In this document: piece after piece, positions 1 through 9,726 of the stretch | Position numbering within the stretch: position 1 is the stretch's first letter | Layout: each line of letters begins with the position of its first letter | Virus record (IMG/VR): IMGVR_UViG_3300020462_000554 | Coordinates: 1 to 22,414 of that record | DNA length: 22,414 nucleotides | Strand: one strand, 5' to 3' | DNA from: a virus | Notes under the pieces: generated by a model | Database searches by the model: none | What the model was told of the DNA's origin: nothing | What the model saw: only the letters and a program-made list of their open reading frames with translations | Made by a program: the position numbers and the translations under genes

Positions 1-125
1 TCTAAGTCTGAACCACAAAATGGGCAAAATTTAATTTCATATCCATCACCCAAATCATATTCAACATCACCTTCTGCTCCACATTCTCCACAATAAAAAG
101 ACCTTACTTGTTCTGGGTCTTGCAT
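1..125 (-). CDS. Zinc-ribbon protein, partial (runs off the left edge)
   Basis: ATG at 125 opens a frame that is still open at base 1, so only 41 N-terminal residues are visible. They hold two CxxC pairs, C12-GE-C15 and C34-PF-C37 followed by G, about 18 residues apart. This is the pattern of a small zinc ribbon. A good Shine-Dalgarno (GGGAG) sits 8-9 bases before the ATG, overlapping the stop region of the glutaredoxin gene, so this is the last visible gene of the nrd/redox operon. Small zinc-ribbon proteins are common in T4-like marine phages, but what this one binds cannot be told from the sequence. The C-terminus and full length are unknown. Confidence 0.7.
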   Translation of the reverse strand, partial: MQDPEQVRSFYCGECGAEGDVEYDLGDGYEIKFCPFCGSDL

Positions 126-138
126 AATTGTTATCTCC

Positions 139-375
139 CTATTTTTCGTTCCAATCAGTTGTGAACCATTTATATAGTTCTTGGTATCCACCTATTGCTT
201 CACCATCAATCCTAATTTGAGGGAAGGTTCTTGCAGTAGGGAATTCTTCAAAGAGTTCTTCTCTTGTAAAGTCTGTGTCTAATTGTTTATAGACAAATTC
301 TAATTCTTCTCTTTCACAAAGTTGTTTTGCTTTGTCACAAAAAGGACATTGTGTTTTTCCAAATATTTCTATCAT
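139..375 (-). CDS. grx: Glutaredoxin
   Basis: This 78-residue protein has the thioredoxin fold signature of a dithiol glutaredoxin. The active site C10-P-F-C13 follows the first beta strand, the cis-proline is in T50-F-P52, and the glutathione-binding GG pair is at 62-63 (IGGY). The length matches phage and bacterial glutaredoxins. Glutaredoxin passes electrons from glutathione to class Ia ribonucleotide reductase in the cytoplasm, and nrdA and nrdB lie in the same operon, so that is its likely role. The start overlaps the cytochrome c stop by the four bases ATGA, which supports translational coupling. I see nothing missing from the active site. Confidence 0.93.
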   Translation of the reverse strand: MIEIFGKTQCPFCDKAKQLCEREELEFVYKQLDTDFTREELFEEFPTARTFPQIRIDGEAIGGYQELYKWFTTDWNEK

Positions 376-815
376 TTTAATTCTACCTCAATAAATTTAC
401 CTAACATATTTATCTCTGCATCGGATAACATACCTGCTTGACCCCACATTGTAGAACTCATTGCACCGACTTCACCTCTATTCTTATATGTGTTAAGTCT
501 ATCCACAATGTAGTCTTGAGTTTGACCAGCAAGTTTAGGGAATACTGCCATTCCTTGACCTTCTTGTCCATGACAAGCTGCACACCCACTCCATAAACTT
601 CTAATATCACTGAACTCGTCTAAGTTTGCAAGTTCTTGTTTTGCTCTAAGTTGTTCTACTACTGTTCCATTAACTTCGACATACTCTGCATAACACATAC
701 CAGTACATGAATGTGTACTAGGATATCCTTTGTACTCCATGTCTGGATAGATTACAGTTGCAAAAAATCCAGTAAAAATTAAACAACCAAATAATACCAT
801 TCCTAATTCTTTCAT
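372..815 (-). CDS. Exported mono-haem c-type cytochrome
   Basis: This 147-residue protein opens with a hydrophobic segment at about residues 5-23, which acts as a signal peptide or membrane anchor. The haem attachment motif is C78-A-A-C81-H82. It is followed by GQEGQG and a FPKLAGQ stretch at 92-98, then a Met-rich region (M119, M123) that can give the sixth haem ligand, and a final helix starting LSDAEI. This order is that of class I cytochromes c of the c4/c553/oxidase-subunit type, which carry electrons in the periplasm. An extra Cys pair (C37, C41) lies in the linker before the haem domain. The start overlaps the nrdB stop (TAATG). A haem protein is not needed for phage DNA metabolism, so a role in host respiration during infection is inferred. 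Maturation would depend on the host cytochrome c assembly machinery. Confidence 0.88.
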   Translation of the reverse strand: MKELGMVLFGCLIFTGFFATVIYPDMEYKGYPSTHSCTGMCYAEYVEVNGTVVEQLRAKQELANLDEFSDIRSLWSGCAACHGQEGQGMAVFPKLAGQTQDYIVDRLNTYKNRGEVGAMSSTMWGQAGMLSDAEINMLGKFIEVELK

Positions 816-1915
816 TATAATTTAAATCCTTCAAAGGTATTTTCTTTAATATCTTGTTTGATACCACCGATGACATAAGATTCAATCTCAGTCTCCTGTG
901 GTGCATTCTGTTGACCCTTTGATGTCAACCAATGTTGTGTCCATGGTAATGGATTAGTTCTACTTGATACCTCATATATAGGATTTAAACCAATTGCACG
1001 AAGTCTTCTATTTGCAATATACTCTACATACTGACTTAAAAGTGCAGTAGATAAACCTAACATACTACCATGTATGAATAAATATTCTGCCCAATCTTTT
1101 TCTTCTTTGACTGCTTCTTCATACATCTGGTAAACATCTGGTTCACAATCTTTCATGACTTTAGTCATAACTTTATCTTTCTCTTGATTCTGATAACATT
1201 TTAGAATGTGTTGAGTAATTGCAAGATGTTGTGCTTCGTCTCTTGCAATGAAACTTATAATCTTTGCAGACCCTTCCATTTTTTTCATTTCACCAAATGC
1301 AAAAGTACATGCAAATGATACAAAGAAACGAAGTCCTTCAAGTATGTTGATACTTATAAGTGCAAGATATAATCTTTTCTTAAGTTCGTATTCATCCTTT
1401 TCATAACCTAAACTATATCTTTGTGCATAGTCAATAAACTCATCATATCTTTTTGTTACTGACTCTGCTCTTGCAATGATTTTCTCATCGTCTAGAATTG
1501 TATCAAACACTTTTGAAGGGTCTGGATACAGATTCTTTATCATGTAAGTGTAGGAACGACTATGGATAGTTTCCATAAAGTCCCATGTAATAATGCATCC
1601 TTCTAACTCTGGAAGAGTACAGAAAGGTAATAATGCAGTAGCAGGGCCTCTACCTTGAACTGAATCCAGAAGAGTTTGGTACTTTAGATTACTAGTAAAG
1701 ATATGTTTATGTGCTTTACTCAGTTCATTGTAGTCGTTCCTATCTTTTTGAAGAGAAACTTCTTCTGGTCTCCAGAAGTAACCCAATTGTCTTTGTGTTA
1801 ACTTGTCGAAAATCGGATATTTAAAATCGTCATATCGTTGGGTATTAAGTTCCTCTCCAAAGAAGATTGGATTCTTTAAAAAGTTTACTTTATTTCTATT
1901 AAATACTTTACTCAT
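815..1915 (-). CDS. nrdB: Ribonucleoside-diphosphate reductase class Ia, beta subunit
   Basis: The protein has 366 residues and closely tracks E. coli NrdB. It makes and stores the diiron-tyrosyl radical used by NrdA to reduce ribonucleotides. All ligands are visible: D84 (LLDSVQG), E115 and H118 (ETIHSRSY), E194, E228 and H231 (RDEAQH), with the radical Tyr122 in SRSY. It ends F-K-L, like the tail by which NrdB docks on NrdA. I chose ATG at 1915 rather than the in-frame GTG at 1936. The ATG gives E. coli-like numbering, overlaps the upstream stop as ATGAGTAA, and has AAAGGA ten bases upstream. It feeds dNTP synthesis for phage replication, together with NrdA and glutaredoxin. Confidence 0.96.
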   Translation of the reverse strand: MSKVFNRNKVNFLKNPIFFGEELNTQRYDDFKYPIFDKLTQRQLGYFWRPEEVSLQKDRNDYNELSKAHKHIFTSNLKYQTLLDSVQGRGPATALLPFCTLPELEGCIITWDFMETIHSRSYTYMIKNLYPDPSKVFDTILDDEKIIARAESVTKRYDEFIDYAQRYSLGYEKDEYELKKRLYLALISINILEGLRFFVSFACTFAFGEMKKMEGSAKIISFIARDEAQHLAITQHILKCYQNQEKDKVMTKVMKDCEPDVYQMYEEAVKEEKDWAEYLFIHGSMLGLSTALLSQYVEYIANRRLRAIGLNPIYEVSSRTNPLPWTQHWLTSKGQQNAPQETEIESYVIGGIKQDIKENTFEGFKL

Positions 1916-2918
1916 ATTTCTCGTGTCCTTTACCACATGGTTTACCTGTGATGGGGTCTGTTATTCCTGTATTTCCATACTTCCAATACTCATTTCTTTT
2001 TTGTATTATGCTGTTTGCCTCGTCCCATGCTCTACCCTGTTTACTTCCTGTTCCATGATAAACCGATGGTCTACCATCATATGCAAGTATTGGAAAATCT
2101 CTATACATAGGGCCATCTGCATGTAAATAATGTATAAAGATTTGTCTTGCAGACTCACCTGCTAATCTATCTCTCCAGTGTATTACATTACTACCTTGAT
2201 AAAATAATGCATCACCTGGCTCTAATAAAACTTGAGTGCAATTCTCTCTATCCTTGAAAGGTGCATTCATTGATAAATTCCATGAGTCTTCATTATCCAT
2301 TCCACAAAAGTTCATATCATTACGAATCCATATTGACCATGGTTTACCATTATCTGTATTATATGATATAGGAAAAGTTGCACTGAACTCACATGATGGT
2401 CTATCAGTATGACTCAACAATCTTGAATGTCTGTCATAAGTTCTTCCATACGAATATGTTGGGACTAATCTATATCCAAACAATTCTTCAATTTTCTTTT
2501 GATACATTAAAAGAATAGTTTCTCCATAGTTAGGAAAAGGCATTCCTTTACTAACCCATGTATCTAATCCTTTACCTCTATCATCAAAGTTTTCACCTAT
2601 GATATGTTCTTCACGATAGTATTGTTTTCTATGTTCTTGAAACTTAAACATATGAGAAGTCCATTCAATGTGGTCTTTTTCAAAAAAGTTTCTTGCTACA
2701 AAGAATCTATTCTTTGCAAACTGATAACCTTGTTTAGTTATCTCTGGAACATCATCTGCATAATCTGTTTCTGGATTAAAGACTTCTAGTCTTTTTTCCA
2801 ATGATAATTCGTAAGATTCTAATATATCTTCTTTTAAAAGATTGTTAGTATTAAGAATCTCTTGTTTGTTATTATCTTGTTCTTCTTTACTTTTTCTTGC
2901 GTAATCTATATGGCGCAT
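1908..2918 (-). CDS. 2-oxoglutarate/Fe(II)-dependent oxygenase-like protein
   Basis: This 336-residue protein carries a double-stranded beta-helix core at about 150-270. The iron triad is H170-x-D172 and H247. R258, in a beta strand (SARQIFIHY), is placed to bind 2-oxoglutarate. LLEPGDALFY at 231-240, just before the distal His, is typical of Fe(II)/2OG dioxygenases. The N-terminal 130 residues and the last 60 (rich in Gly, Lys and Tyr) match no domain I recognise. Such oxygenases hydroxylate or oxidise proteins, nucleic acids or small molecules, and the substrate here is unknown. The gene sits between nrdA and nrdB, overlapping nrdA by 13 bases and nrdB by 8, so it is expressed with them. 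T4-like marine phages often carry 2OG oxygenases of unknown substrate. Confidence 0.82.
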   Translation of the reverse strand: MRHIDYARKSKEEQDNNKQEILNTNNLLKEDILESYELSLEKRLEVFNPETDYADDVPEITKQGYQFAKNRFFVARNFFEKDHIEWTSHMFKFQEHRKQYYREEHIIGENFDDRGKGLDTWVSKGMPFPNYGETILLMYQKKIEELFGYRLVPTYSYGRTYDRHSRLLSHTDRPSCEFSATFPISYNTDNGKPWSIWIRNDMNFCGMDNEDSWNLSMNAPFKDRENCTQVLLEPGDALFYQGSNVIHWRDRLAGESARQIFIHYLHADGPMYRDFPILAYDGRPSVYHGTGSKQGRAWDEANSIIQKRNEYWKYGNTGITDPITGKPCGKGHEKYE

Positions 2919-5206
2919 GCGTCACATTCCTCATCATCTAAATCTTCCACTACTGGAAGTGGTTCATCTTGAACCTCAATTACTTCATCTGTTTTCATAT
3001 CATATGTGTTTTGATAATAAGATGTTTTCCAACCATATTTATATGTCTTAAGAAGGTCTGTTGCCATTGCAGAGATAGGAACTTCATTATCTTCATAGTT
3101 TTCTGGGTTGTAAGACCAATTTCCACTAATACCTTGGTCAAAAAACTTTTGCATTACTGCAACTACCTTAATATACCCATCATTGTCTTTCATATCCCAT
3201 AAAAGTGTATAAAAGTTCTGTAACACTTGATATGATGGAACAATCTGCTTTAGAGGCCCTTTCTTCGATTTCTTGACACTTAAATAGTCTCTTGGTGGTT
3301 CAATACCATTTGTCTCGTTAGAGACCACTGAGGAGCTCTCAGAGGGCATCTGTGCAGATAATGTACTATGTCTTAGTCCATGTACCTTAATTACAGTTCT
3401 GAGCTTCTCCCAATCTTCTTTATATACTGGTTTTACAATCTCATCAACATCTGTTTTATAGGTATCAATAGGTAATAATCCTTCTGCATACTTTGTACTA
3501 TCATACCATTCACATTTACCTTTTTCTGATGCAAGTTGAGCTGATGCTCTTAGTAAACTATATTGAAACTTTTCTGTAAGTTCATGTACTAATTTATGTG
3601 CTTCTGCATCATCATACTTAACTTTATTCTTTGCAAGGTAATGTGCAAGTCCAATATACCCTATTCCTAATGACCTTCTTGCTTTGGTTGATACCTCTGC
3701 AGCTTTCACTGGATATTTTTGATAATCAATTAATTCTTCTAATCCACGAACTGAAAGTTCACAAAGTTCTGGTAGTTCATCTATCTTGATTGAACCCACA
3801 TTGATTGCAGATAAAATACAAAGTGCAACCTCTCCATCCTCATCATCTGGATGTGAGATTGGTTTTGTAGGTAAAGTAATCTCTTGACATAAATTTGACA
3901 TACTTACTTTATCTGAGAATGAACTATGACTATTACTATGGTCAATGTTCATAATATAAATTCTTCCTGTCTCTGCTCTTTCCTTGAGCAAGTCCATCAT
4001 TAATGTTCTTATACTTATTTTCTTTTTAGGGATTGAATATGCTCTCTCGTACTTTTCGTAAAGTTCATCAAACCCTTCTGTTCCAAATGCATCGTAGAGG
4101 TCAGGCACATCGTGAGGACTAAACAAAGTAATGTCTTCGTCTTTGATAAATCGTTCATAAAATAACTTACTTAATTGGATTGAGTAGTCAAGTTTTCTGA
4201 CTCTATTATCTTCTGTTCCTTTATTGTTTTTGAGAACAATAATGTCTTCAATTTCTTGATGCCAGATTGGAAAGTGGACAGTAGCACTTCCACCACGAAC
4301 ACCATTTTGGGTACAACATCTGACAGTAGATTCAAATTTCTTGAGGAAAGGAATAACTCCTGTGTGCTGTACTTCTCCACCACGAATTTTAGAATTGATT
4401 CCACGAATCCTACCAGCATTGATACCAATACCAGCCCTCTGTGCAACATACCTACCAATAGCCATATCAGAAGAGAAGATACTTGAAAGAGTATCATCAC
4501 TGTCGACCAGAACACAACTAGCAAACTGTCGAAGAGGAGTTCTAACCCCTGCCATAACTGGGGTTGGAATGTTGATTTTAAATTGACTAATCGCGTCATA
4601 ATATTTTTTAACATAATTTAATCTCGTTTCTTTAGGGTAGTCCTTAAAAAGAACTGCACTAATCAAAATATACATGAACTGAGGTGTCTCATACAATTTA
4701 CCAGATGACCTGTCTTGTACAAGATACTTGTCCACTACCTGTTGGAGACCTGCGTATGCAAACAACATGTCTCTGTTATGATTCAAATACGAGTTGAGTT
4801 TATCCCACTCCTTATCGTCATAATAATTTATTAAATCTTTATCGTAAACACCATATTCGATATTTCTTTCTACGATATCTTTCAATGGTGGATAGATTTT
4901 ACTATCTTTCCATTTAGTATTGAATACATCCTTACGAATTGCAAACAATAATAATCTAGATGCAACATATTGATAATTAGGTGCATCTAATGATATTAAA
5001 TCTGATGAAGATTTAACTAATGTTTCTTGAATTTCTTGAGTAGTTACTCCATCATAAAACGACAAGTTTGCACTCATTTCAACCTGTGATGCAGATACCC
5101 CATTGATACCTTTACATGCAGCTTCTACCATTCTATGAATTTTTTCTAAATTTAAATTCTCTTTTGACCCATCCCTCTTTGTAATACTTAAACCATTACC
5201 ATTCAC
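2906..5206 (-). CDS. nrdA: Ribonucleoside-diphosphate reductase class Ia, alpha subunit
   Basis: The protein has 766 residues and is the catalytic subunit that reduces NDPs to dNDPs. An N-terminal ATP-cone (about residues 7-95) suggests allosteric control by ATP/dATP. Catalytic residues are all present: C231 and C463 form the reducing pair, N438-x-C440-x-E442 is the radical site (NLCQE), and Y730-Y731 form the radical relay. The C-terminus ends C761-D-A-C764-A-I, the shuttle cysteine pair re-reduced by glutaredoxin; the spacing is shorter than the CxxxxC of E. coli. Translation starts at GTG (5206-5204), which overlaps the primase stop by one base (TAGTG) and has GGAG nine bases upstream. It works with NrdB and the glutaredoxin further down the operon. 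Confidence 0.97.
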   Translation of the reverse strand: MNGNGLSITKRDGSKENLNLEKIHRMVEAACKGINGVSASQVEMSANLSFYDGVTTQEIQETLVKSSSDLISLDAPNYQYVASRLLLFAIRKDVFNTKWKDSKIYPPLKDIVERNIEYGVYDKDLINYYDDKEWDKLNSYLNHNRDMLFAYAGLQQVVDKYLVQDRSSGKLYETPQFMYILISAVLFKDYPKETRLNYVKKYYDAISQFKINIPTPVMAGVRTPLRQFASCVLVDSDDTLSSIFSSDMAIGRYVAQRAGIGINAGRIRGINSKIRGGEVQHTGVIPFLKKFESTVRCCTQNGVRGGSATVHFPIWHQEIEDIIVLKNNKGTEDNRVRKLDYSIQLSKLFYERFIKDEDITLFSPHDVPDLYDAFGTEGFDELYEKYERAYSIPKKKISIRTLMMDLLKERAETGRIYIMNIDHSNSHSSFSDKVSMSNLCQEITLPTKPISHPDDEDGEVALCILSAINVGSIKIDELPELCELSVRGLEELIDYQKYPVKAAEVSTKARRSLGIGYIGLAHYLAKNKVKYDDAEAHKLVHELTEKFQYSLLRASAQLASEKGKCEWYDSTKYAEGLLPIDTYKTDVDEIVKPVYKEDWEKLRTVIKVHGLRHSTLSAQMPSESSSVVSNETNGIEPPRDYLSVKKSKKGPLKQIVPSYQVLQNFYTLLWDMKDNDGYIKVVAVMQKFFDQGISGNWSYNPENYEDNEVPISAMATDLLKTYKYGWKTSYYQNTYDMKTDEVIEVQDEPLPVVEDLDDEECDACAI

Positions 5207-6198
5207 TATACTTTACTCCAATTATTAATTGCAAGGGATAATTCTAAACCTTGTCTTGTATTATTATTAATCACATCAACGATTGATGGTATCTTGTTAA
5301 GTACCATATCATTAATATCTTTTTCCCCTATCGTCTCTGGCCAAACACAAACCTTATATCCTTGGTCACCCATAGACCTCATCTTCTTGATGATTTCTTT
5401 GTTCCGAGGTTCATTGTCAAAAATAAGAGTAGAACCACTCTTACTAATTTCGTTTGTTACCTTAGAGAAGTCTGAACCTGCGACTGCAATGCAGTTGTCC
5501 AGAAATAAAGAGTCAATTGGCCCTTCAACAACATAAAGAGGTTGGTTGAAATCAACTTTGTCGAGATTAAAAATAAGTGGTTTTTCTTCATCGAATCGTA
5601 ATGTTAAATATCTTAGTTGTGAATTATTTAATGCTCTACCAGTTATTCCTATGAGATTATTTTGTCTATCAAAGAAGGGTAGAACTAGTCTTGGGTCGTT
5701 TCCTAAAACTCTCTTATTATACTTATAATTTATTGAACTTAGACTTTGTGATTTCTCTACAAAATAGAAATCTTTCCACCATTTTTTTGGTATCTTTCTT
5801 CTAGTCAAATATTCAACACATAATTCACTATCTTCTGCTTTGGGATATCTTGCAAGTATGTTAGATTTGAACTTTGGTGGTTCAAATGTAAAGTTTTGTT
5901 GTGCAACTGGTCTGGTATCATTCTTCTTACCAAACTTTTCCATGACCCATTGTTTATGTAACATTTCATCATGGTCTTTTAAAAATATACCTATATTAGT
6001 AGAATGACCACAATTATGACACTTATAGACATAGGTGTCCTTATGCACGAAGTGATAACCTCTTGCTTTTAGTTGGTTACTAGAACTGTCTCCACAATAG
6101 GTGCATGAATGGTTAAGGAGTTTATCATCCTTCCACTTCACATTTCTCAACCGAGGAGATACCAATTTAAGGTATTTTTTATCAATCCACAAAGACAT
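5206..6198 (-). CDS. DNA primase, T4 gp61 type
   Basis: This 330-residue protein makes RNA primers for lagging-strand synthesis with a gp41-type helicase at the phage fork. It has an N-terminal zinc ribbon (C32-TY-C35 and C60-HN-C63) followed by a TOPRIM catalytic domain. In that domain E225 lies in VVEGPIDS, an acidic pair (D261, E263) in IFDNEP, and a KDIND motif at 293-297. Length and order fit T4 gp61. The ATG at 6198 is the only sensible start, because the WID segment and the zinc ribbon follow at once. No Shine-Dalgarno precedes it, and the candidate promoter puts transcription start almost on the ATG. It is the first gene of the primase-nrdA-oxygenase-nrdB-cytochrome-glutaredoxin run. 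Confidence 0.9.
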   Translation of the reverse strand: MSLWIDKKYLKLVSPRLRNVKWKDDKLLNHSCTYCGDSSSNQLKARGYHFVHKDTYVYKCHNCGHSTNIGIFLKDHDEMLHKQWVMEKFGKKNDTRPVAQQNFTFEPPKFKSNILARYPKAEDSELCVEYLTRRKIPKKWWKDFYFVEKSQSLSSINYKYNKRVLGNDPRLVLPFFDRQNNLIGITGRALNNSQLRYLTLRFDEEKPLIFNLDKVDFNQPLYVVEGPIDSLFLDNCIAVAGSDFSKVTNEISKSGSTLIFDNEPRNKEIIKKMRSMGDQGYKVCVWPETIGEKDINDMVLNKIPSIVDVINNNTRQGLELSLAINNWSKV

Positions 6199-6783: not shown

Positions 6784-7117
6784 TTTCTATACTCTCAAAT
6801 ACTTGCTTTGTTGAGTTATTAACTCTTTTTTCAATCATGCCAGGCTTAGCAATTGCAAGTTGGTTTAAATTATGTCTTCGAAATATATCCAGATATGAAT
6901 TCATTTCTTGTTCAATCTGTGCATTCTTTCTACTCATTTGGTTCAATGCTTTACCTTGTTTCTCAAAGGATTCTCTCATTGTATCCATAGCTGCCTGTTG
7001 TTCTTTTACTGCACCTTCAAGTGCAAGATTGTTTGCACTCAATACTTGGTTTTGATTATAGAGATAATAACCCCCTAATCCTAAAACCAATATAATTCCT
7101 ATCAACATCTGTTGCAT
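6722..7117 (-). CDS. Inner-membrane coiled-coil protein, probable i-spanin
   Basis: The protein has 131 residues. A single hydrophobic span at about residues 4-22 is followed by a long polar helix (about 23-90), rich in Gln, Glu, Lys and Asn with heptad-like spacing. This topology, N-terminus in and the rest in the periplasm, fits an Rz-like inner-membrane spanin. Its last 62 bases overlap the lipoprotein gene in a different frame, as in many spanin pairs. The start overlaps the acyl carrier protein stop (TAATG). The tail is acidic and rich in Asp and Asn. A general membrane-anchored coiled-coil protein remains possible, but the lipoprotein partner makes the spanin role the best reading. Confidence 0.65.
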   Translation of the reverse strand: MQQMLIGIILVLGLGGYYLYNQNQVLSANNLALEGAVKEQQAAMDTMRESFEKQGKALNQMSRKNAQIEQEMNSYLDIFRRHNLNQLAIAKPGMIEKRVNNSTKQVFESIENDSKELDSLDDPTSDINPNN

Positions 7118-7332
7118 TATGAATTGTCCTCAATCCATTGTTTGATATCTGCAACTGTGAAAAGGGTTTCTGCATCTTCATCTGGTATTTCAACTTCATA
7201 CTCAGACTCAATGTCCATAACTATTTCGACTACTGATAATGAATCTGCACCTAAGTCATCAACAATATGTGACTCATCTGTAATTGTAGATACATCTACA
7301 TTTAATCTTTCTGATAATATTTTCTCTAACAT
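7117..7332 (-). CDS. Acyl carrier protein
   Basis: This 71-residue acidic protein matches the whole acyl carrier protein fold. It has four helices, with the phosphopantetheine attachment serine S31 in the signature G28-A-D-S-L at the start of helix 2, and the following acidic recognition helix (VVEIVMDIESEYEVEI). Host ACP synthase would add the 4'-phosphopantetheine arm so that it can carry acyl chains as thioesters. The ATG follows the upstream stop directly (TAAATG), with AAGGAG about 7 bases before it. The partner enzyme is not obvious. The spanins lie just downstream and a diiron oxidase lies about 1.3 kb upstream in the same run. It may redirect host fatty-acid or lipid A synthesis, or serve that oxidase; both ideas are inference. 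Confidence 0.9.
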   Translation of the reverse strand: MLEKILSERLNVDVSTITDESHIVDDLGADSLSVVEIVMDIESEYEVEIPDEDAETLFTVADIKQWIEDNS

Positions 7333-7584: not shown

Positions 7585-8620
7585 TTGCTCTCCACTGATA
7601 ACATGACCAATATCTTGCTTTCCATTTAGGGCCAGGATTTGCACAATCGTGTCTTGCTCTAAAAGATTTTCTTCTAGCAGGGTCGTCTCTTTTAATAGAC
7701 ATTTTAGGGTCACCAAATCTAACTACAACAACTGAACCCTTTTCATTCTTTACATAGACCTTAAACTTCTTATTAGGGTTCTCAGATGTTCTTATAGGGT
7801 TGTTTAATGTAACTTTTTTACCTTGGTATTCTGATTCTGTGATTACATGGTCATAGTGACCAGTACATTCTGCACAACATTCTTCTTGAGCTCTTTTAAT
7901 TTGGTCTTGGGTAGGAGCTCCTTTTTCACCCTTCTTTCTCATTTTTTCACCACGAGCTCTTTTCTTTCTGATATTGTCCCAAAGTCCTTCTTCTAATTCA
8001 TCACCTTGTTTTAAGAACAATCTGTTTTTCCCTTGTTTCTTATCAGTTACTACCATTCCTACCATTTTTGCTATAGAACTAATAAATGCCATTCCATCTT
8101 TTGCATTTGCTCGATATTTTTTACCCATTTCAGCTTTGAGTTTTTTAACAATAACATCAAGTACATTTTCTACAGTACTAACTAACTTACCATCTACCAT
8201 TAGTCTTGCTTCATTTACAGATGAAAGAGAACCTTTAAGTACAACTTTTTTCTTTTCTTTTTCTTTATCTTTGACATGAGGTGGATGTTCATCATCACCA
8301 GCAACAATAGACCCCATTTGATTAATGATTGAAGTGATGACAGGCATTGGTAGTCTTGCAATTACATCAGCTGCTTTTGCATCTAGACCTTTTACTTTCT
8401 TTAATAAGTTTTTAATCTTTGCATTTTCAGTGATTGCTTTCTCTTGGCCAGGGGTATCTTCTTTGTACCTTTTTAAAAGTTCTGGTGTACCTATTTCCCT
8501 ACCAGATGAATCTTCCTTCTTTTTCTTTTTACGAACAATAGGTTCATTAGTTGCTACTGCAACTCCAGTTGCATTTGCTGGTGCATCTTCGAATACTTCT
8601 TTGAACCTTTTTATTTTCAT
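7565..8620 (-). CDS. Probable virion/internal-head protein with a conserved C-terminal Cys-containing domain
   Basis: This 351-residue, very lysine-rich protein begins MKIKRFKEVFED, similar in pattern to the N-terminal peptides of other putative internal-head proteins here. Residues 1-200 are basic and helical, with a KKKKK run at 31-35. Possible prohead-protease sites are V135-N-E|A and L209-E-E|G. The C-terminal region (about 245-345) has a Cys cluster (C248, C249, C252), a beta-rich part with VRFGDPKMSIKRD at 299-311, then RRKSFRARHDC and a final C340. I recall this C-terminal block as recurring in T4-like marine phage proteins, but I know of no established function. The start overlaps the diiron oxidase stop by ATGA. 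A structural or DNA-associated role in the head is inference. Confidence 0.7.
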   Translation of the reverse strand: MKIKRFKEVFEDAPANATGVAVATNEPIVRKKKKKEDSSGREIGTPELLKRYKEDTPGQEKAITENAKIKNLLKKVKGLDAKAADVIARLPMPVITSIINQMGSIVAGDDEHPPHVKDKEKEKKKVVLKGSLSSVNEARLMVDGKLVSTVENVLDVIVKKLKAEMGKKYRANAKDGMAFISSIAKMVGMVVTDKKQGKNRLFLKQGDELEEGLWDNIRKKRARGEKMRKKGEKGAPTQDQIKRAQEECCAECTGHYDHVITESEYQGKKVTLNNPIRTSENPNKKFKVYVKNEKGSVVVVRFGDPKMSIKRDDPARRKSFRARHDCANPGPKWKARYWSCYQWRASAKVDN

Positions 8621-9726
8621 TTTACTATCTCTAGGGGTTTACTTAACTCTTCCCATGATGTTTCATAGTCTGATTCCACAGAGTCTTGAAACTTGGAAAT
8701 CCCTAACATATCATATTTAGGTAAAAGTCTATCTGGAAGTAGTCCAACTTTCTTAAGATTAGGCATAATCCTAGTAAACAGTAGTTCTTGGAATTGAGTA
8801 TTCAATGCATTTTTTGTAATATACTTATCTGTATATTCAATATCAAATCCCCATTTTTCCCAAACATCATATTGTTTAAATCTATTTCTTAATACTGTAC
8901 AAGCTTCTAAACAAAAATCTTCTCTTTCTTCTAGTTCTTGAGGAGTTAATGTTTTTGTAAAACTTTCAAGATAATTAACACCAAAGGTTACATGTCTTGC
9001 TTCGTCTCTAATCACTAGAGTAAGTATTGACCTTAATACTGGGTCTGTAGTTGTTTGTCTTATTGTATTGAAGATTGCAAGTGCAAGACCTTCAATGATT
9101 ATTTGCATTCCAATAAATTTCAAATCCCACCTTTCATCTGTAAGAATTTTATCTAGTAATGCTTTTAGTTGTGTACCGATAGGAAACATTCTACCAACTC
9201 TAACCTGTAGATACTTATTAAATGCTTCTACATGTCTTGCTTCATCAAATGTTTGTGAAGCTGCATATAGTTTTGCATTGAATGTTGGAGCGCAACTTGT
9301 AAGTTGAGATGCAACTAGTAATGCACCTTGTTCACCATGCAGTAATTGTGCAAGTGTCCAATTATTTAAATCTTGAACAAAATCTTTTCTTTGTTCCAAT
9401 GACAAGTGTTTGTAATCTTTATGGTCTTTCCACTGTTCATTAAAAAACATAAATGCAGTTTCGTCTTCATCTGGATTAGGAACATCCCAATTGATGTCTG
9501 ATTCTACATTCCAATTTTTTTCTTTTCCTAATTCATATAGTTTTTTAATTCTATTGTCTTGAACTGTGTAATCCCAATTATAAGAACCAGTTAGAGGTGT
9601 ATTGAATATTTCAATTACATCTTCTGGGTTAATTCCTTCGTCTTCCACTGGATAGTTTGCACCATTGAAATGTGCAATGTCTTTTGGTGGGGATTGTACT
9701 TTAGTAATTTTCATAAATCCATTCAT
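8617..9726 (-). CDS. Ferritin-like diiron oxidase/oxygenase
   Basis: This 369-residue protein has a four-helix ferritin-like core. The complete six-ligand set of a diiron carboxylate enzyme can be placed: E132 (GEQGA), E162 and H165 (DEARHVEAF), E212 (IEGLA), and E242 and H245 (RDEARHVTF). The same E...ExxH...E...ExxH order is used by NrdB, R2-like oxidases, acyl-ACP desaturases, AurF-type N-oxygenases and bacterial multicomponent monooxygenases. It is not a second NrdB, because the SRSY radical tyrosine context and the NrdA-docking tail are absent. The ATG at 9726 overlaps the upstream stop by ATGA. The substrate is unknown. An acyl carrier protein lies about 1.3 kb downstream in the same run, so an acyl-ACP substrate is worth considering but not shown. 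Confidence 0.8.
   Translation of the reverse strand: MNGFMKITKVQSPPKDIAHFNGANYPVEDEGINPEDVIEIFNTPLTGSYNWDYTVQDNRIKKLYELGKEKNWNVESDINWDVPNPDEDETAFMFFNEQWKDHKDYKHLSLEQRKDFVQDLNNWTLAQLLHGEQGALLVASQLTSCAPTFNAKLYAASQTFDEARHVEAFNKYLQVRVGRMFPIGTQLKALLDKILTDERWDLKFIGMQIIIEGLALAIFNTIRQTTTDPVLRSILTLVIRDEARHVTFGVNYLESFTKTLTPQELEEREDFCLEACTVLRNRFKQYDVWEKWGFDIEYTDKYITKNALNTQFQELLFTRIMPNLKKVGLLPDRLLPKYDMLGISKFQDSVESDYETSWEELSKPLEIVK

Follow-up and report, generated by a model that had tools for sequence, protein, structure and literature searches.

The stretch of DNA analysed here, referred to as the window, comprises 22,414 nucleotides of a viral record (IMG/VR IMGVR_UViG_3300020462_000554). Close to its start lies a gene, cyt, for a c-type cytochrome, embedded in a series of minus-strand genes (Table 1). 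The cyt reading frame is intact, running from ATG to TGA with no internal stop codon, and it overlaps its neighbours at either end. The stop codon of nrdB and the start codon of cyt have one base in common (TAATG, 813-817), and the start codon of grx overlaps the cyt stop codon (ATGA, 372-375). These overlaps confirm the position between nrdB and grx reported in an earlier note on this DNA; that note gave no strand, which is the minus strand. The PHROG 2954 family gene of the cluster is named ferrochelatase in PHROGs, and by eye it resembles a 2OG-Fe(II) oxygenase. The encoded NrdA is 75% identical to the NrdA of a cyanomyovirus. Elsewhere the window encodes an acyl carrier protein (7117-7332; PF00550, 1e-12) and an AurF-like di-iron oxygenase (8617-9726; PF11583, 1.1e-10); in related loci (L203-L208) an AurF-like gene adjoins the alternative oxidase described below.

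Table 1. Features of the cytochrome cluster; coordinates refer to the window except where a contig is named
Feature	Coordinates	Strand	Basis
Zinc-ribbon gene, truncated at the window end	3..146	minus	weak zinc-ribbon matches
grx, glutaredoxin, downstream of cyt and overlapping its stop codon	139..375	minus	PF00462 3.3e-12
cyt, class I c-type cytochrome, probably membrane-anchored, 147 aa	372..815	minus	PF00034 2.4e-7; PDB sequence matches; fold match to c554/c552; 80 viral relatives
Met123, predicted sixth haem ligand	447..449	minus	invariant in 38 sequences; aligns with Met of solved cytochrome 8yts
CAACH, predicted haem c attachment site, residues 78-82	570..584	minus	C78, C81, H82 invariant in 38 sequences
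CTGMCY (CxGxCY) motif, residues 37-42	690..707	minus	62/63 distinct viral sequences; 16/18 bacterial relatives
Predicted N-terminal membrane helix, residues 2-25	741..812	minus	model helix, pLDDT about 91 over residues 1-20; mean Kyte-Doolittle 2.3
nrdB, ribonucleotide reductase small subunit, immediately upstream of cyt	815..1915	minus	PF00268 1.4e-55
PHROG 2954 family gene	1908..2918	minus	phrog_2954 4e-34; no Pfam match
nrdA, ribonucleotide reductase large subunit	2906..5206	minus	PF02867 5e-131
Phage DNA primase	5206..6198	minus	phrog_47 8.2e-74
Alternative oxidase genes of cyt-bearing phages	L001 6396-6968; L020 5441-6007; L274 7212-7820		PF01786

The encoded protein

The cyt product scores 32.4 bits against the Pfam profile PF00034 (Cytochrom_C), above the cut-off of 21.3, whilst against PF13442, the profile of cbb3 oxidase subunit III (CcoP), it reaches 23.9 bits, below the cut-off of 27; membership of the CcoP family was rejected on this score. 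By sequence, its closest solved relatives in the PDB are cytochromes c4, c552 and c554 (best match 1.1e-14). Each haem domain of cytochrome c4 is similar in sequence to cyt, however c4 proteins have two such domains and cyt has one CxxCH in its 147 residues, so that membership of this group too was rejected.

An AlphaFold2 model built from a 38-row alignment (mean pLDDT 83.7) starts with a helix (residues 2-25) and continues through an ill-defined segment (30-36) and linker helices to a confident haem domain. In Foldseek comparisons the haem domain matches cytochromes c554, c546/556, c552 and c553 with a probability of 1.00, a TM score to the target of 0.73-0.82 and an rmsd of 1.2-1.9. Cytochromes c552/c554 (1cno, 2zzs) and c546/556 (8yts) have the fold, the CxxCH and the Met ligand region of the haem domain in common with cyt, but they are chains of 80-105 residues which lack the CxGxCY segment and the phage context. 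A CxxCH early in the haem domain, the profile match, a Met on the C-terminal side and the fold identify the protein, by sequence and model, as a class I c-type cytochrome which would be loaded with haem c.

Ten residues are invariant in 23 diverse viral members of the family: C37, G39, C41, Y42, C78, C81, H82, G83, M123 and W124. When bacterial relatives are added, giving 38 aligned sequences, C78, C81, H82 and M123 are still invariant; M123 is the only Met candidate of which this is true, the other Met residues being variable. The earlier note had proposed a c-type cytochrome, predicted to be exported, within a phage nucleotide and redox operon, and the results on profile, fold, conservation and gene order all favour this proposal. 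Neither of the two outcomes that it had named as contrary, absence of a profile match or loss of C78, C81, H82 and a Met ligand in viral homologues, was observed.

The N-terminal helix is hydrophobic, and no AxA-like cleavage site was found in the sequence that follows it, which makes an anchored protein more likely than a soluble one, as judged from sequence. The part beyond the helix is acidic, with a pI of 4.8. The cysteine pair C37/C41, which had been singled out as unusual, is real and conserved; it is not peculiar to the phages, being a trait of the family that is common to the bacterial relatives. The pair may form a structural disulfide or serve as a redox or metal site.

Distribution, selection and origin

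In a scan of IMG/VR, 111 stretches were found to encode relatives of cyt, of which 80, mostly full length and with 59-100% identity, were kept; at least 80 viral contigs thus encode such a protein, and on two of those kept it is identical to that of the window. The median pairwise dN/dS is 0.26 and the maximum 0.55 (302 unsaturated pairs), so the protein is maintained by purifying selection. The order nrdB-cytochrome-grx, which it had been suggested to seek in marine virus contigs, is shared by 39 of the 84 viral loci, with nrdB upstream and glutaredoxin downstream. In 5 further loci glutaredoxin is directly upstream of cyt, and in some others cyt sits beside a late sigma factor and gp46/47-like genes; given these differing settings, the gene has moved between positions.

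The carriers are T4-like phages. On one contig of 146 kb (L271-L278) the genes stand in the order of the window, primase-nrdA-PHROG2954-nrdB-cyt-grx, with an alternative oxidase a few small genes further downstream. PHROGs families are matched at 1e-56 or better by six proteins of this contig: the major head protein, prohead protease, portal, sheath, tube and late sigma factor. Cellular contamination is excluded. Residence in a phage genome, seen on the T4-like contig, together with the upkeep by selection that is apparent from dN/dS, marks cyt as a putative phage auxiliary metabolic gene, and we rate it among those concerned with electron transport.

A number of other genes accompany cyt in these phages. 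A small open reading frame encoding a single-helix protein of 57-94 residues has 45 matches, mostly directly beside cyt, and matches nothing in Pfam or PHROGs. It is found beside cyt or the oxidase and sometimes apart from both (L018 5441-5614; L042 5441-5623; L052 4834-5004; L277 11283-11567). Although recurrent, it occurs away from cyt, and was therefore rejected as an obligatory partner. Some phages encode IscS, IscU, IscA-like and ferritin-like proteins near cyt (L035 5457-7614; L053 354-1164; L058 3163-4815), and one cyt-bearing contig encodes a haem oxygenase (PF01126, 7.8e-20; L153 5510-6076) and a 4Fe-4S ferredoxin (L151 819-1172). Genes resembling those for curli export, CsgG-like and CsgF-like when judged by eye, are also present in cyt-bearing phages (L153 2223-3698; L276 8948-10410). 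Phage contigs with the cyt operon (L082-L085) sit in metagenome-assembled genomes called Synechococcus, Planctomycetaceae and Sphingobacteriales, and are probably misbinned.

Considered as a protein, cyt joins an unremarkable class I haem domain to a membrane-anchored architecture of bacterial type, and we found no name for this plan. As a phage gene, it has no precedent that we could find in the resources searched. There is no match in PHROGs at E 1, and in BFVD, which holds viral structures, no fold matches the cyt model at better than E 2.3. Among 50,697 phage records searched with tblastn, none matches the window protein at 0.01, and none matches at 0.1 a bacterial relative or a consensus-like cytochrome probe of our own composition, which is not a database sequence. 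These results fit the view of the earlier note that haem electron carriers are rare among phage genes. The open-access papers searched contain no description of a phage cytochrome c like this, which is not proof of novelty. Previous reports from viruses concern respiratory genes of another kind: cbb3 oxidase subunit I from the viral fraction, recovered from metagenome reads (PMC3474794), and a viral ccoP (PMC12713726) are oxidase subunits, as opposed to a single-haem carrier. Other earlier work deals with carriers of photosynthesis.

The plan of helix, CxGxCY and haem domain is found at full length in about 14 of 195 Pseudomonadales genomes sampled, the named carriers being Halieaceae and Halioglobus assemblies. 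Outside the Pseudomonadales, only haem-domain matches reach 1e-20 among the 369 gammaproteobacterial and 399 proteobacterial genomes sampled. Like cyt, these bacterial proteins (L086, L120-L134) have an N-terminal helix that appears uncleaved, a CxGxCY motif, a single CxxCH and an SxxM(W/Y/F) motif; the window protein, with its helix, CxGxCY, single haem domain and SxxM(aromatic), conforms to this plan at 27-38% identity. Unlike cyt, they are encoded by stand-alone chromosomal genes, in marine Gammaproteobacteria of aerobic type, and a long branch lies between them and the viral clade. Their neighbourhoods hold no conserved operon from which a function might be read.

Of the viral sequences in the tree, 62 group together on a long stem, as a single clade apart from the bacteria (SH-aLRT 99). 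Two divergent viral cytochromes (L203, L213) are tentatively placed elsewhere on long branches, and an AU test for monophyly of all viral sequences gives p 0.113. The earlier note had looked to SAR11 for relatives; a SAR11 origin is not supported, as the only full-length cellular relatives found belong to Pseudomonadales (Halieaceae and kin). In a partial sample of 399 Proteobacteria, no genome other than those already included in the Pseudomonadales sample gave a match at 1e-20.

The companion alternative oxidase

Contig L001, whose cytochrome is identical to that of the window, encodes an alternative oxidase of 190 residues about 1 kb downstream of cyt. In contigs of this population the gene lies beyond the zinc-ribbon gene, a point which falls just outside the window. 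The protein matches PF01786 over residues 2-189 (3.8e-70, 236 bits), and the di-iron ligand motifs LET, NERMHL, EEEA and RADExxH can be read directly from its sequence; on this full-length match and these motifs it is an alternative oxidase.

Within the flanking DNA retrieved, 16 of 84 cyt loci contain the oxidase, which overlaps the end of cyt in 5 of them, and L193-L197 show tight pairing of the two genes in other phages. A separate scan found 167 viral stretches with oxidase relatives, and 23 of the 80 loci kept from it also contain cyt within the DNA retrieved. Many cyt loci are without the oxidase in that DNA and many oxidase loci are without cyt, and therefore the two are not an obligate pair. 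Phage C48C1 (OQ984149.1, Kyanoviridae) encodes an oxidase, annotated as hypothetical, that is 62% identical to that of the window population (L242 8031-8582); it differs from the window phage in that its record contains no match to the window cytochrome at E 0.01.

The phage oxidases group with those of two Halieaceae-type genomes (72-75% identity, SH-aLRT 100) in a bacterial sample that covers a subset of bacteria and was partly chosen because the genomes carry cyt. Both of these genomes carry cyt also. Since the closest oxidases and the cytochrome occur in the same genomes, sequence comparison suggests, whilst not proving, that marine Halieaceae-type bacteria are the donor and a possible host. 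GC content differs, at 0.34 in the phage as against 0.49-0.59 in the bacterial regions.

Electron flow in the infected cell

Alternative oxidases take electrons from quinol and not from cytochrome c, and therefore the phage cytochrome and the phage oxidase need not act together. A phage-encoded haem-copper oxidase was considered as a partner for cyt and rejected, as none is present among 12 viral records; electrons leaving the cytochrome would therefore need an oxidase of the host. The idea that cyt has a role in respiration nevertheless gains weight from the presence of a phage alternative oxidase in the same gene cluster.

On balance we consider it probable, with some reserve, that these marine T4-like phages form a family equipped with respiratory genes, in which the cytochrome sustains or reroutes host respiration and the alternative oxidase is a recurrent companion. 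The account includes predictions as to how the protein is loaded with haem and oriented, which partners it has, in which direction electrons flow and what the phage gains. The cytochrome would be exported by Sec and held by its N-terminal helix, with haem c attached at CAACH by the Ccm system of the host. In the periplasm it would accept electrons from bc1, the quinol-oxidising complex of the host, and pass them to a terminal oxidase, also of the host, thereby supplementing the carrier that normally works there or taking its place. In phages that have it, the alternative oxidase would provide a second, non-pumping outlet which takes electrons directly from the quinone pool. Between them the two proteins could keep up electron flow, NAD+ regeneration and energy supply and ease over-reduction, during a phase in which the genes of the host are silenced and reducing power is being spent on making deoxynucleotides.

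The cytochrome, along with the oxidase where there is one, might instead draw electrons off the energy-conserving path of the host so as to weaken its growth or a defence that depends on membrane energy. This would accord with the recurrence of the oxidase beside cyt and with the known enzymology of alternative oxidases, which conserve no energy. It is unlikely, however, given that purifying selection acts on a haem domain and ligands of the kind found in an ordinary carrier and that T4-like phages depend on host energy up to lysis.

The near invariance of C37 and C41 in viruses and bacteria, and the frequency of glutaredoxin on either side of cyt, could point away from a carrier between bc1 and oxidase and towards a periplasmic function in thiol and redox chemistry or oxidative stress, with CxGxCY and haem acting jointly in a disulfide relay or in the handling of peroxide or metal. 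Yet glutaredoxin is cytoplasmic and goes with ribonucleotide reductase, and the invariance of M123 indicates that the haem is probably six-coordinate, unlike the open site of a peroxidase; such a function seems improbable.

It is very doubtful that cyt and the small single-helix protein work as a complex in a phage-specific membrane process, for although most of the 45 matches lie directly beside cyt, the open reading frame also occurs away from it, belongs to no known family and was not found in the DNA of the window. Finally, bacteria commonly encode cytochromes c and an individual contig may be misassigned, but the idea that cyt reflects contamination with cellular DNA, or that it is a captured host gene in decay, can be dismissed with near certainty, as phage genes lie on the same contigs, including the 146-kb T4-like genome, the 62 viral sequences stand as a clade apart from bacteria, dN/dS does not exceed 0.55 and broken frames in many relatives were not seen.

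The role favoured here, that of sustaining or rerouting host respiration, has a parallel in the cyanophages, which carry plastocyanin (petE) and PTOX, often in one cassette; these genes are hypothesised to keep electron flow balanced during infection (PMC3037559). In both cases an electron carrier and a quinol oxidase are carried by phage, although the cyanophage genes belong to photosynthesis, to other protein families and to phages of cyanobacterial hosts, and the carrier contains copper, not haem. A further likeness is seen in the T4-like Prochlorococcus phage P-TIM68, in which NdhP (L280 6969-7112) directly follows nrdB, the slot occupied by cyt in the window phage; unlike cyt, it is annotated as a subunit of NADH dehydrogenase. 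The cyt phages probably manage host respiration during infection much as cyanophages manage photosynthesis. It is attractive to consider, though we would stop a little short of calling it an even chance, that respiration in heterotrophic Gammaproteobacteria is taken over at two branches, the phage cytochrome serving that of bc1 and the phage oxidase that of quinol. If so, the plastocyanin/PTOX strategy would have its counterpart in respiration, and the phage would control how the infected cell uses oxygen, its redox balance and how much ATP it gains.

Reprogramming of energy metabolism by phages is well documented for photosynthesis and poorly so for the aerobic respiration of marine heterotrophs. 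The present analysis identifies an oxidase hitherto annotated as hypothetical in the record of phage C48C1, and puts forward Halieaceae-type bacteria as candidate hosts for a group of uncultured phages. A conserved family of phage cytochromes c, often found near a phage alternative oxidase, thus provides specific genes with which to ask if infected heterotrophs respire differently, a change that would have a bearing on how oxygen is consumed and carbon turned over in the ocean.
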